The notes under the pieces are model-generated. The model searched no databases. It had not been told where the DNA came from and saw nothing but the letters and a program-made list of their open reading frames with translations. This document shows positions 44,732 through 60,640 of a DNA stretch of 64,000 nt, in pieces. The first letter of the stretch is position 1. Every line of letters begins with the position of its first letter. The position numbers and the translations under genes were made by a program. This DNA is from Lentibacillus sp. Marseille-P4043 (GTDB taxonomy: Bacteria; Bacillota; Bacilli; Bacillales; Amphibacillaceae), in the NCBI RefSeq assembly GCF_900258515.1, contig NZ_LT984884.1, positions 395,002 through 459,001 on the forward strand, read 5' to 3'.

Positions 44732-44756
44732 TAATCTCAATAATTAAATTCACGAA

Positions 44757-45017
44757 CAGTGATGACGAAGAATAGTACTCTATCCAAGTACTTTTAGAGA
44801 GCTGGTGGTTGGTGTAAACTAGCAGTATTGGTTAGACGAATGGACTTCTGAACTTCCAAACCGAACCATAATTGCAGTAGGCTTTGGCGAACGTCTCATC
44901 GTTACAAGAGACAAATATTAAGTAATGATACTTGATATTACCAAAGTGAGCTGTTTTTTAGCTAATAAAGGTGGTACCACGGGTTCCTCGTCCTTTTGGG
45001 ATTGGGGGACCTTTTTG
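44757..45017 (+). ncRNA. T-box leader 1 (tryptophan specifier)
   Basis: The leader has the AGAGAGCTGGTGG stem I bulge, a specifier loop GAATGGA with TGG (Trp codon) at 44841-44843, and the T-box sequence AAAGGTGGTACCACGG at 44967-44982. The following GTCCTTT and GGGGGAC form a terminator stem with G-U pairs before CTTTTT (ends about 45017). Uncharged tRNA-Trp should pair with TGG and TGGT of the T-box and prevent termination. Confidence 0.9.
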
Positions 45018-45049
45018 TGTACCCAGAATACGTAACTGCATATATAAAA

Positions 45050-45388
45050 ATCGCTGAGTAAGAAGAGTAAGCTTTTCCTGAAGCGTTACAGAGAGCCGGT
45101 GGTGGTGTAATTCCGGCACGTGGATAAAAGCTGAATGGCCTTACGAGAGGTTTCTTGAACAAAAGTAGGGAAACACGGAGCTCCGCCGTTATACGGATAG
45201 GATATAAGGAAAAGCGGAAACAACCGTATAGCGGCGTATGCGCTAGACATAGCTGTAGAAGAACAGCTTAATCCCGTATCCGAACAAGATGAAAGCCAGC
45301 ATTAGCCGGTTTTCAACAGAGGTGGCACCGCGGTCATAATCGTCCTCTATAAACACATCCACATGTGTTTATAGAGGACTTTTTTATT
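45050..45388 (+). ncRNA. T-box leader 2 (tryptophan specifier)
   Basis: A second complete T-box in tandem: AGAGAGCCGGTGG bulge region at 45089-45101, specifier GAATGGC with TGG at 45136-45138, T-box sequence AGAGGTGGCACCGCGG at 45318-45333, and a strong terminator in which GTCCTCTATAAACACAT (from 45342) pairs with its complement, followed by T6. trpE starts about 30 bases later. Both T-boxes must be satisfied for full expression. Confidence 0.95.
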
Positions 45389-52246: not shown

Positions 52247-52815
52247 TTGGATTAATCGCATTTAAACAAACTGCGACTGCTGGGCTCTTTTCTATAAATA
52301 CGCGCATTTCCCGCCGTCCGGGATCGTTCCGGGTGGATGCTTTCCGCGGGCACGGCCTCAGCCTCCTCGAGAAAACCACTCTGCGGGGTCTTCGGACACG
52401 TGCTGGGGCTGCGCTAACTCGCCCCACCGAAAACCATTGTTCCCGCAGGACAAGGAAGGCTACGCCAGCGATACATCGCACGAAGAAAAAGTGCTTTTCT
52501 TTTTCGAGGAGTCACCACTCTCCACTCACCCGGGCTAGTGAAGCGGTAGAATGTGGCTTGGTAGAACACATACTACTACAGTTAATGGTAGTAAATGCAA
52601 TACCAGTGGAGGAAATACGCGGAGACTCCTGGGGGAGGAAAGGCCTAGGTGAGACCCCGCAGTGCGTTAGCACGAGGAGGCTCAGCAGCCGCCCCCGGAA
52701 AGCGTAGTGTATTTCCGGAACGGCGAGGGAGCAATTTCTTAGTTACTTCGCATTTTGTATATAAATCAGCAAATGTTCTCAATAGGGCGAGTAATCGCAG
52801 TCTCAATCTTAACAG
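52247..52815. repeat. Dispersed palindromic repeat element D (two cores)
   Basis: An 870-bp gene-free stretch between the SHOCT gene and the lipoprotein gene is mostly repeat DNA. The first core (52300-52460) runs in reverse: TTTCCGCGGGCACGGCCTC, CTCTGCGGGGTCTTC and GCGCTAACTCGCCCCACCG. The second core (52611-52716) has outer arms GGAAATACGC and GTGTATTTCC around GACTCCTGGGGGA, GTGAGACCCCGCAGTG and CCCCCGGAAAGCG. The tail 52730-52815 (GGGCGAGTAATCGCAGTC) matches element A. ORFs across it are GC-rich artefacts of the palindromes. Confidence 0.85.
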
Positions 52816-54414: not shown

Positions 54415-54443
54415 TTTACAATTTACATCTATCCCTTTACTAT
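54415..54443 (+). promoter_or_regulatory. Promoter of the TPP riboswitch-lipM-lipA transcript
   Basis: TTTACA (54415-54420), a 17-base spacer and TACTAT (54438-54443), about 25 bases before the riboswitch. Confidence 0.75.
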
Positions 54444-54469
54444 AGAAATTGTTAAATAAAATAAAAAAA

Positions 54470-54557
54470 TCACTAGGGGAGCTTTCATGAGCTGAGAAGA
54501 ACATCTTCGTTCTGACCCTTCGCACCCGATCTAGGTAATACCAGCGTGGGGAAGTGT
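54470..54557 (+). ncRNA. TPP riboswitch (thi-box)
   Basis: The aptamer is complete on the plus strand: CACTAGGGGAGC opens P1/P2, GCTGAGAAG is the CUGAGA pyrimidine-binding motif, GACCCTTCGCACCCGATCT joins to the pyrophosphate helix, and GGTAATACCAGCGTGGGGAAGTG closes it. All invariant blocks of the family are present. It is followed by an intrinsic terminator (54579) and then by lipM, so TPP binding should switch the lipM-lipA message off by termination. Confidence 0.96.
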
Positions 54558-54578
54558 AGTCGCATGTATCATACATAC

Positions 54579-54618
54579 AAACGGGCTGCACTCCACTGGG
54601 TGCAGCCCGTTATTTTTC
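54579..54618 (+). terminator. Riboswitch-controlled terminator
   Basis: ACGGGCTGCAC (54581-54591) pairs with GTGCAGCCCGT (54600-54610), followed by TATTTTT. It lies 23 bases after the aptamer and 44 bases before the lipM start. Confidence 0.9.
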
Positions 54619-54661
54619 AGGTTACTAACAGTACCAACATCAACATAAGGAGGCGATTCAT

Positions 54662-55495
54662 GTGCGTGATGAATGGGGATTTATCGACACTGGGATATGT
54701 GATGCAGCAGTTAATATGGCACTCGATGAGATGCTATTGCAATGGCATAGTGAGGGGAAAATACCACCAATTTTACGTTTCTATCAGTGGTCTACGCCAA
54801 GCCTTTCCTTAGGTTATTTTCAGGATGTTGATAAGGCAATTGAACTGGAGGCATTAGACCGCTATCAAATACCCCTTGTTCGCCGTCTAACAGGTGGAAG
54901 CGCTGTTTTACACGATGATGAACTGACCTACAGCATTATCATTGCAGAAGATAAACCTTATATCCCTGCATCGGTCGGAGAAGCTTATTACATACTTTCA
55001 AAAGGCATTTTTGCAGGGTATACCAAGTTAGGTATCACGGCAAATTATGCGGAAACAAACAAAACAGACAAGAGCCGCTCCGCCGTGTGCTTTGAAAAAC
55101 CCGCCTTGTATGAGCTAATGGCAGGCGGGAAGAAAATATCGGGAAACGCCCAGACACGTCAAAAAGGGATACTGCTGCAACATGGATCAATACCACGGTC
55201 CATTGATAAAACAATGCTTTTTGATTTGTTCTGCTTTCCAAGTGAGGAAATCCGGGAAAGGAAACGAAAGGCATTTGGTCAAAAAGCAACAACAATCAAT
55301 CAAGAAACAAAACAACATGTATCTATGGACACCATGAAAAACGCGTTTAAAACAGGGTTCGAAACAGGGGTAGACATTGGGCTATTCCCATTTGAACTAA
55401 CCACTGAACAATGGAATGAAGTGTACCAGCTTGCTGAAGCAAAATATAGCAATAACGATTGGAACTTCAAACATAATCTAAGGAGCGTGTACTAA
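54662..55495 (+). CDS. lipM: Octanoyl-transferase LipM
   Basis: LipM transfers octanoyl from ACP to GcvH, the first step of lipoyl assembly in bacilli. The 277-residue product belongs to the BPL/LplA/LipB fold: RRLTGGSAVLHDDELTYS, the catalytic Cys143 in SAVCFEKPALYELM and Lys158 in GGKKISGNAQTR. LipM has this Cys where LplA ligases do not, so I favour octanoyltransferase. The start is GTG at 54662 with AAGGAGG eight bases upstream; an ATG at 54660 is out of frame. lipA follows directly. Confidence 0.92.
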   Translation: MRDEWGFIDTGICDAAVNMALDEMLLQWHSEGKIPPILRFYQWSTPSLSLGYFQDVDKAIELEALDRYQIPLVRRLTGGSAVLHDDELTYSIIIAEDKPYIPASVGEAYYILSKGIFAGYTKLGITANYAETNKTDKSRSAVCFEKPALYELMAGGKKISGNAQTRQKGILLQHGSIPRSIDKTMLFDLFCFPSEEIRERKRKAFGQKATTINQETKQHVSMDTMKNAFKTGFETGVDIGLFPFELTTEQWNEVYQLAEAKYSNNDWNFKHNLRSVY

Positions 55496-56458
55496 ATGGC
55501 TAAACAAGAAGAATACATACGAAAACCAGACTGGCTAAAAACCAAAATCAACACGAATCAATCATACAGAGGGCTTAAGAAATTAATGCGGGATAAGAAA
55601 TTAAATACGGTTTGTGAGGAAGCCCGCTGTCCAAATATCCACGAATGCTGGAGTGAACGAAAAACGGCAACATTTATGATTTTAGGGGATACCTGTACTC
55701 GTGGTTGCCGTTTTTGTGCAGTAAAAACTGGACTACCAAACGAATTGGATTGGGGAGAGCCCGCTCGTGTTGCTGAATCTGTAGCTATCATGGGCTTGAA
55801 ACACGTCGTTGTTACAGCCGTAGCACGGGATGATCTAAATGACGGTGGTGCGGCCGTATTTGCGGAAACCGTTCGGGCAATCCGTCGGGCAAACCCTGGT
55901 TGCACGATTGAAATCTTACCATCTGACATGAAAGGTGATTATGAAAGCCTGCATACTTTAATGGACAGTGAGCCAGATATTTTTAACCATAACATCGAAA
56001 CAGTGCGCCGGTTAACCAAACGTGTTCGCGCAAGAGCAATGTACGATCGTTCGCTACAATTGCTCCAGCGGGTAAAAGAAATTGCCCCAAAAACACCAAC
56101 AAAATCCAGTATTATGGTTGGATTAGGCGAAGAAAAAGAAGAAATTATTCAAGCAATGGATGATTTATTAGCGCATGATGTGGACATTATGACAATCGGA
56201 CAATATTTACAGCCTACGAAAAAGCACTTGAATGTAGAACGCTATTATCATCCGGATGAATTTGCCGAGCTAAAGGAAATTGCTCTGGAAAAAGGATTCC
56301 GCCACTGTGAATCAGGTCCACTTGTACGTTCTTCGTATCATGCAGATGAGCAAGTAACACAAGCATCAGCACAAAGAAGAATTAACTATATGAAGGGCGT
56401 TGAAGAACAAGAAGCTAAAGCAGTAGATTTCAAATCTTGGTTTTTTAATCAGAACTAG
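55496..56458 (+). CDS. lipA: Lipoyl synthase
   Basis: LipA is the radical SAM enzyme that inserts two sulfurs into octanoyl-GcvH or E2 domains. The 320-residue product has the auxiliary-cluster cysteines Cys40, Cys45 and Cys51 ([12 protein letters not shown]), the SAM-cluster motif CTRGCRFC (Cys67, Cys71, Cys74) and the C-terminal RSSYHADEQ segment with the auxiliary-cluster serine. It starts at the base after the lipM stop, so the two genes form one message under the TPP riboswitch. Confidence 0.97.
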
Positions 56459-60061: not shown

Positions 60062-60640
60062 AAGGCTGTCTTCTAAAGGATTGGGACTGCGATTACTCGC
60101 CCCACCGAAAACACTTGTTGTTTATGACACATAAGCTATATAATGCGCAGTAACTTTTATGTGACTTCCTCTCATTCTTTACAAGATGAGTGGAAATCGC
60201 GGCTTGGGGGAAATACTCGCTTTCCGTGGGGAACGCTTCAGCCTCCTCGCGAGCAAAAACCGCTCACTGCGGGGTCTTCAGACAGTTCCTTTCCCACAGG
60301 AGTCTCGCATTTCCCCCAAGCCTAAGTCTGATTTTCTGTTCGTGGGAGAAGAAAGCCACTTAATATTAAAATCATTAACAACTACTCACAATCCAGAAAA
60401 TTCTTATCAGCGGAGACAGAATACGAAGACTCCTGCGGGAACAATGGTTTTCGGTGGGGCGAGTTAGCGCAGCCCCAGCACGAGCTGAAGACCCCGCAGA
60501 GTGGTTTGAAAAGGAGGGTCGACTAAAACCGTCCTTTGCGGACAACGTCGACATACCCCTCGCCGGGGCAAGGAGGCTGAAGCCGTGCCCGCGGAAAGCG
60601 AAGTATTCTGGTGGAGCGTATTCAAGCACCTCTGTTAATT
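60062..60640. repeat. Dispersed palindromic repeat element E (two cores)
   Basis: The left border (GGCTGTCTTCTAAAGGATTG, then GCGATTACTCGCCCCACCG) is the reverse of the element A tail. The first core has outer arms GGCTTGGGGGAAAT (60201-60214) and ATTTCCCCCAAGCC (60309-60322), in reverse orientation. The second core has arms CAGAATAC (60417-60424) and GTATTCTG (60603-60610) around GACTCCTGCGGGA, GCTGAAGACCCCGCAG and GTGCCCGCGGAAAGCG. No gene is supported in 59900-60750; ORFs here are repeat artefacts. Confidence 0.87.

Follow-up and report, generated by a model that had tools for sequence, protein, structure and literature searches.

Why should an RNA switch for thiamine pyrophosphate (TPP) stand directly before the genes for lipoate assembly? 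Few RNA switches are known as well as TPP riboswitches, whose role is taken to lie in thiamine supply. In the main text of a survey covering 564 TPP sites in 249 genomes, the regulon categories are thiamin biosynthesis and the transporters of thiamin and its precursors; lipoate, lipA and lplA are absent from that main text (PMC3766115). The window analysed here, i.e., the whole stretch of 64,000 nucleotides from Lentibacillus sp. Marseille-P4043, carries such an element upstream of lipM and lipA.

The leader of lipM-lipA and its predicted switching

The following features, all on the forward strand, make up the locus.

54415..54443 (+), putative sigma-A promoter, TTTACA - 17 nt - TACTAT, from a consensus scan
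54465..54569 (+), TPP riboswitch aptamer (THI element), Rfam RF00059
54553..54561 (+), 5' strand of the predicted antiterminator, AGTGTAGTC, with its AGTG common to the 3' strand of P1
54580..54618 (+), intrinsic terminator, stem 54580-54611 (14 pairs, 9 of them G-C) followed by a U-rich tail
54662..55495 (+), lipM, predicted octanoyltransferase of 277 aa with GTG start, open reading frame with a Pfam LplA-B_cat match of 151 bits
55496..56458 (+), lipA, lipoyl synthase of 320 aa, open reading frame with a TIGR00510 match of 403 bits

The original prediction had placed a complete thi-box aptamer at 54470-54557, and this was borne out, that stretch being the core of an RF00059 match at 54465-54569 (74.2 bits vs the gathering score of 54.3, E 9.5e-13). 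The match spans the full model, positions 1-105 of 105, with a few non-standard pairs marked, and helix P1 is formed by CACT (54471-54474) and AGTG (54553-54556). The terminator claimed alongside it was likewise recovered as a 14-bp stem at 54580-54611, followed by the U-rich tail ATTTTTCAGG, with an energy of -25.7 kcal/mol. In agreement with the same prediction, lipM and lipA follow the switch with no thi gene between the aptamer and lipM in the list of open reading frames of at least 60 aa. The sole other forward-strand frame of at least 60 aa in that interval (54546-54812, 88 aa) extends into lipM in a different reading frame. The usual trait of RF00059, control of a thiamine gene, is thus absent in the window, where lipM-lipA lies directly downstream, although this trait does not define the family. 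As for the promoter, sites in the window region were no more numerous than in shuffled sequences. Among the 39 aptamer-bearing leaders of the family described below, a best site with at least 9 of 12 matches within 70 bases 5' of the aptamer was found in 25, compared with 23% of shuffles, and TTTACA is the first hexamer of the best promoter-like site in 25 of the 39.

The identity of the two genes was assessed from domains and conserved residues. LipM carries the Pfam LplA-B_cat domain, while the ligase C-terminal domain PF10437 is found in this genome solely at an lplJ-like locus. Two residues, Cys143 and Lys158, show no variation among the 99 orthologues, the Cys being presumably the catalytic residue known from B. 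subtilis LipM. Four NCBIfam models match the window protein, all below their own cut-offs and with no LipM equivalog among them; from the domain layout and the invariant Cys and Lys, it is predicted to be a LipM octanoyltransferase. LipA exceeds the TIGR00510 cut-off (403 vs 310.25 bits), and the motifs CxxxCxxC, CxxxxCxxxxxC and RSSY, which we take to mark the lipoyl synthase type, are present in 99 of 99. The genome holds a single LipM and a single LipA. It also encodes an LplJ-like ligase and a LipL-like protein, and four of its proteins contain an E3-binding domain of the kind seen in E2 subunits. For the LipL-like protein, the best NCBIfam models are GcvH-dependent transferases, with scores below the cut-offs. 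This gene set resembles the LipM-LipA-LipL pathway of Firmicutes, with the LplJ-like ligase in addition. The words riboswitch and thiamin are absent from the main texts of PMC10332631 and PMC5049849.

The genome contains five TPP riboswitches in all, the other four preceding thiW, tenA-thiD, an NMT1/THI5 gene with a thiamine-binding gene, and thiT. On contig C1 of this genome, short and imperfectly repeated units (about ACATCAACCCGAA...) also form long arrays at two of the loci inspected, L004 ~2560-2970 and L215 ~433-1461, and give open frames with many HRPESGN-like words; one array lies upstream of the riboswitch of the NMT1/THI5 gene and one adjoins the LipL-like gene. Elsewhere in the window, tandem T-box leaders precede trp genes (44753-44998, 133.5 bits; 45045-45350, 122.6 bits), an arrangement on Bacillota trp genes that is already listed in PMC12452182. 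Furthermore, a 52-base sequence at 52399-52450 recurs 8 kb away as a perfect inverted copy (60431-60482), with a third, diverged copy at 60082-60119, and looks like a dispersed intergenic repeat.

The switching of the leader was examined by comparing its alternative pairings. In the minimum-energy fold of a transcript ending at 54597, positions 54553-54561 pair with 54584-54592 over 9 bp, and this antiterminator duplex is stronger than in 200 of 200 shuffles. In general form, the aptamer end AGTGYAGTC can pair with the terminator 5' arm GACTGCAY. Across 41 leaders (39 of the window's own family and 2 of another), the antiterminator beats at least 95% of shuffles in 34, with a mean z of -3.0; the seven that do not are L013, L014, L015, L026, L034, L035 and L048, the first three belonging to close relatives. 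In L123, both strands deviate from the common form yet still pair, GTGTGGTC with GACCACAT. When the window leader is folded at full length, the structure with P1 forced (-50.4) is favoured over that with the antiterminator forced (-45.6), as would be expected for a terminator that has to be forestalled during transcription. In addition, a terminator-like hairpin of -9 kcal/mol or lower lies 3' of the aptamer in 38 of the 39 family leaders, compared with 6 of 60 lipM loci lacking an aptamer (p 7e-20, with kinship ignored), and at -6 kcal/mol the counts are 39 of 39 and 9 of 60. The control windows comprised 180 bases before lipM and the leaders 100-122, so that the longer controls count against the result. 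The weakest terminator among the leaders, that of L028 (G077), has -8.0 kcal/mol.

The aptamer, the terminator, the alternative pairing and the conservation of these elements are established computationally. Because P1 and the antiterminator share AGTG, the two pairings are mutually exclusive, and TPP should favour P1 and with it termination, making this an OFF switch. In the absence of TPP, AGTGYAGTC would pair with the terminator 5' arm, and the resulting antiterminator would allow RNA polymerase to read through; with TPP bound, P1 would take AGTG, the terminator would form and transcription of lipM-lipA would stop. The same shared AGTG makes an ON switch unlikely. By analogy with the RF00059 family as regards binding and switching, the leader is very probably a transcription-terminating TPP OFF switch on lipM-lipA, having in common with the riboswitches of thiamine synthesis and transport the ligand-binding core and the logic of switching off by termination.

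Distribution and conservation among relatives

A set of 159 genomes of the window's own family was searched for LipM at a threshold of E 1e-40. LipM was found in 99 genomes and LipA in 99, with lipA directly after lipM in all 99 cases, which makes the two genome sets identical. The Rfam search of relatives that the original prediction had proposed gave a TPP aptamer (RF00059, gathering score) upstream of lipM on the same strand at 39 of the 99 loci, spread over 15 of 32 genera. The prediction had also named the same lipM-lipA order without the aptamer as evidence against it, and such loci do occur, numbering 60 of 99; TPP control is consequently not essential for these genes. In the LipM tree, one clade of 53 rows holds 38 aptamers and the other 46 rows hold one (G075), so that 45 of the aptamer-less loci fall in the latter clade and 15 in the former. 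The LipM trees were built quickly and many of their forks are weak, so that the numbers of gains given below are estimates. The nearest named relative fetched, Lentibacillus populi, has a LipM 84% identical to that of the window and carries the aptamer.

Between aptamer and lipM, no substantial gene was found in 37 of the 39 cases, the intervening genes being ykoF (PF07615) in G060 and a short-chain dehydrogenase (SDR) gene in G075. A search for hidden small genes in the aptamer-lipM gaps of the 38 leaders from other genomes returned only the ykoF frame (L049) and the SDR frame (L064) as substantial; outside these two gaps the forward-strand frames reach at most 85 aa, and no common one was noticed. 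G073 has a Bacillaceae-1 RNA (RF01690) in the gap separating its TPP aptamer from lipM, at L051 2085-2152.

In an order-wide search, LipM was detected at 1e-70 in 372 of 397 genomes. Among the best-scoring 29 loci of other families, which are no random sample and were scanned with model R1 (all 29) and Rfam (20), an aptamer was present in two (G469, G507) and a degenerate one in a third (G488). One match of model R1, in L050 (14.7 bits), was dropped as it lies inside lipM. Degenerate aptamers still preceding lipM were found in G083 of the own family (32 bits) and in G488 (22 bits); these elements, at L155 8802-8902 (32 bits) and L206 4895-4978 (22 bits), look like decayed switches. Outside the own family, the LipM nearest to that of the window's genus is found in G233, one of the 29 loci (77% identical to the LipM of the window), which has no aptamer. 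That this genome (L121) is filed in another family may reflect horizontal transfer or a matter of filing.

The aptamer itself is strongly conserved. Its 39 sequences share 31 invariant and 16 nearly invariant columns, although LipM identity to the window protein falls to 51% among the genomes compared, and CTGAGA is present in all 39. CUGAGA binds the pyrimidine part of the ligand. Furthermore, 12 of the 24 consensus pairs of the aptamer have changed on both sides in at least one sequence with pairing kept.

Relationship to the ykoFEDC leader and probable separate gains

The source of the leader was sought by comparing aptamers. Mean identity is 72% between lipM aptamers, 70% between lipM and ykoF aptamers, and 58% between lipM aptamers and those of six other thi leaders. 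A model built from the 39 leaders was run on 30 loci elsewhere in the family; of the 28 aptamers that it found near ykoF, 27 scored 82.6-96.5 bits and one 47 bits. The aptamers of ykoF genes adjoining lipM reached 100-110 bits, that of G060 being one of the 39. With the same model, the other four aptamers of the window's genome reached 53.6-72.6 bits. In addition, the ykoF leaders of G147, G155 and G104 carry the same GACTGCATTCC terminator arm as the lipM leaders. The ykoFEDC riboswitch (RF00059) thus shares with the lipM leader both the aptamer sub-type and the terminator-antiterminator layout, whereas it controls the uptake of thiamine precursors and the lipM leader precedes lipoate assembly genes.

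Gene order points in the same direction. The order TPP-ykoFEDC-TPP-lipM-lipA occurs in G147 and G155, TPP-ykoFEDC-lipM-lipA without a second aptamer in G104, and TPP-ykoF-lipM-lipA in G060. In G147, the products of ykoE, ykoD and ykoC match the ABC_cobalt, ECF ATPase and CbiQ models, as expected for YkoEDC. In G147 and G155 (L153, L159), ykoFEDC and lipM each have a TPP riboswitch of their own, the second one lying downstream of ykoC, and both belong to the same sub-type. It is likely that the lipM leader descends from that of ykoFEDC, the operon for a transporter of thiamine precursors. That leader could have come to drive lipM-lipA by operon capture followed by loss, or by duplication. Since ykoF is still present somewhere in 27 of the 39 aptamer-bearing genomes, simple loss of ykoFEDC is insufficient, and duplication is also needed. 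In the window's genome and two genus mates, a search for ykoF found none, so that in this genus the leader seems to have survived the loss of its original gene.

These observations bear on an alternative raised in the original prediction, namely that a thiamine gene was lost from between the riboswitch and lipM. As an account of origin it fits: the leader is of the ykoF type, no ykoF was found in the three genomes of the genus, and ykoF or ykoFEDC stands between the two in two relatives. It does not extend to a decaying relic: the 39 leaders all retain the aptamer core, all or nearly all of them have a terminator, and most have the antiterminator. In other gene orders, moreover, lipM-lipA seems to have come under TPP control separately.

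Three genomes illustrate the last point. In G047, the aptamer is followed by thiW, thiD, three further forward-strand frames, tenA and lipM-lipA; the roughly 460 bases that precede tenA could hold another promoter. In G075, the order is TPP-SDR-lipM, and this lipM belongs to the other LipM clade; the riboswitch (L202, 5813-5918, minus strand) lies before the short-chain dehydrogenase gene, followed by lipM-lipA. The leader of G018 is unlike the others, having 59% mean identity to lipM leaders and 71% to its nearest match, a thi leader. TPP control was likely gained separately in these three genomes, and one main origin with two to three further gains is the likely course. When G104 and G047 are included, 41 of the 99 loci are under likely TPP control, which is a lower bound with co-transcription inferred. 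As much as 9 kb upstream was covered for 59 loci (52 of the 53-row clade, the window's own apart, together with G075 and six of other families), while the other 45 loci were scanned mostly over 2 to 3 kb, a range in which control from farther up an operon could be missed.

Possible reasons for TPP control of lipoate assembly

The original prediction had called the direction of control, off at high TPP, puzzling. It becomes less so, by inference, when the loss of ThiC and the salvage of lipoate are considered. ThiC was found in 14 of the 159 family genomes and not in that of the window, and most family members, having no detectable ThiC, would depend on external thiamine or its pyrimidine part. 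LipM and LipA are both absent in 60 of 159 genomes at the cut-offs used, and the ligase domain PF10437 is present in 158 of 159. Thiamine and lipoate would thus often be taken from outside in this family, and the TPP level could stand for vitamin supply. High TPP would then report vitamin-rich surroundings, where lipoate could be scavenged by LplJ and its costly synthesis shut down. In S. aureus, LipM serves de novo lipoate synthesis only and salvage enters downstream of it, according to PMC5049849; salvage should therefore still be possible when lipM-lipA is shut off. Among the members of the LipM clade, 2 of the 40 genomes with TPP control and 4 of the 13 without it have ThiC (p 0.027, uncorrected), which is the direction predicted by this rationale, whereas with kinship considered the 5 independent pairs gave no support (median p 1). 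Tentatively, the switch may have been kept because the TPP level signals vitamin-rich surroundings in which lipoate can be scavenged. Taken as a whole, the explanation combining an OFF switch, descent from ykoFEDC and vitamin richness as the reason is probable.

The same RNA mechanism is equally compatible with a different reason, in which TPP reports demand. The apo-E1 components of 2-oxoacid dehydrogenases would soak up free TPP, so that low TPP would indicate E2 awaiting lipoyl groups and turn lipM-lipA on. This would account for the direction of control without any environmental assumption, and the genome does contain the four E3-binding-domain proteins and one lipM-lipA pair. It is nonetheless unlikely, given that 60 of the 99 lipM loci do without the aptamer, though presumably with the same complexes, and that it leaves unexplained why control is common in a ThiC-poor family.

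A further alternative holds that the leader was inherited upon loss of ykoFEDC and that TPP control is a tolerated, useless by-product. The ykoF-type leader in a genus whose three genomes lack ykoF would fit such a relic, as would the decayed leaders of G083 (32 bits) and G488 (22 bits) and the 15 of 53 clade members without an aptamer at the cut-off. The invariance of so many aptamer columns while LipM diverges to 51% identity, the retained terminators and the gene orders of G047, G075 and G018, which seem to place lipM under TPP control separately, speak against it and make it improbable. That LipM or LipA of this clade takes a direct part in thiamine metabolism, as the adjacency of ykoFEDC and tenA to lipM in some relatives might suggest, is highly improbable, because the lipoate-type residues and motifs examined are kept in 99 of 99, the pair is the only one in the genome, and aptamer-less LipM loci have the same lipA neighbour. 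Finally, nothing was found in favour of a chance match or dead element, which can practically be dismissed, a chance match being already excluded at the sequence level by the score (74.2 vs 54.3 bits) and by conservation, with terminators, at 39 of 99 loci.

As the original prediction had supposed, no standard case of a TPP riboswitch on lipoate genes emerged: the literature search, which covered the main texts of openly readable papers, found no link between the two. In the portions of PMC2848557, PMC9495176 and PMC12452182 covered, TPP riboswitch and lipoate terms occur in unrelated places only, and the portion of PMC2211319 covered mentions TPP riboswitches upstream of genes with no assigned function and contains no word beginning with lipo. 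Such a link may already be recorded in databases like RegPrecise. The nearest parallel is provided by glycine riboswitches, which precede lipoyl-dependent glycine cleavage genes (gcvH, gcvT; PMC12452182). Their ligand is a substrate of the pathway, whereas the predicted ligand of the lipM leader is another cofactor.

Altogether, about two fifths of the lipM-lipA genomes of this family (39 of 99) have a TPP riboswitch upstream of genes that make a different cofactor, and the intermediate gene orders show a possible route of rewiring. The finding also serves as a warning that a TPP riboswitch alone is insufficient for calling a gene a thiamine gene. It may be that TPP acts as a general signal of external vitamins and that, in this family in which ThiC is rare, a vitamin B1 riboswitch has been taken over, probably several times, for the choice between making and scavenging lipoate, which would amount to a cross-vitamin circuit. 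If the leader switches as predicted, it would offer a testable case in which the level of one vitamin steers the make-or-scavenge choice for another.
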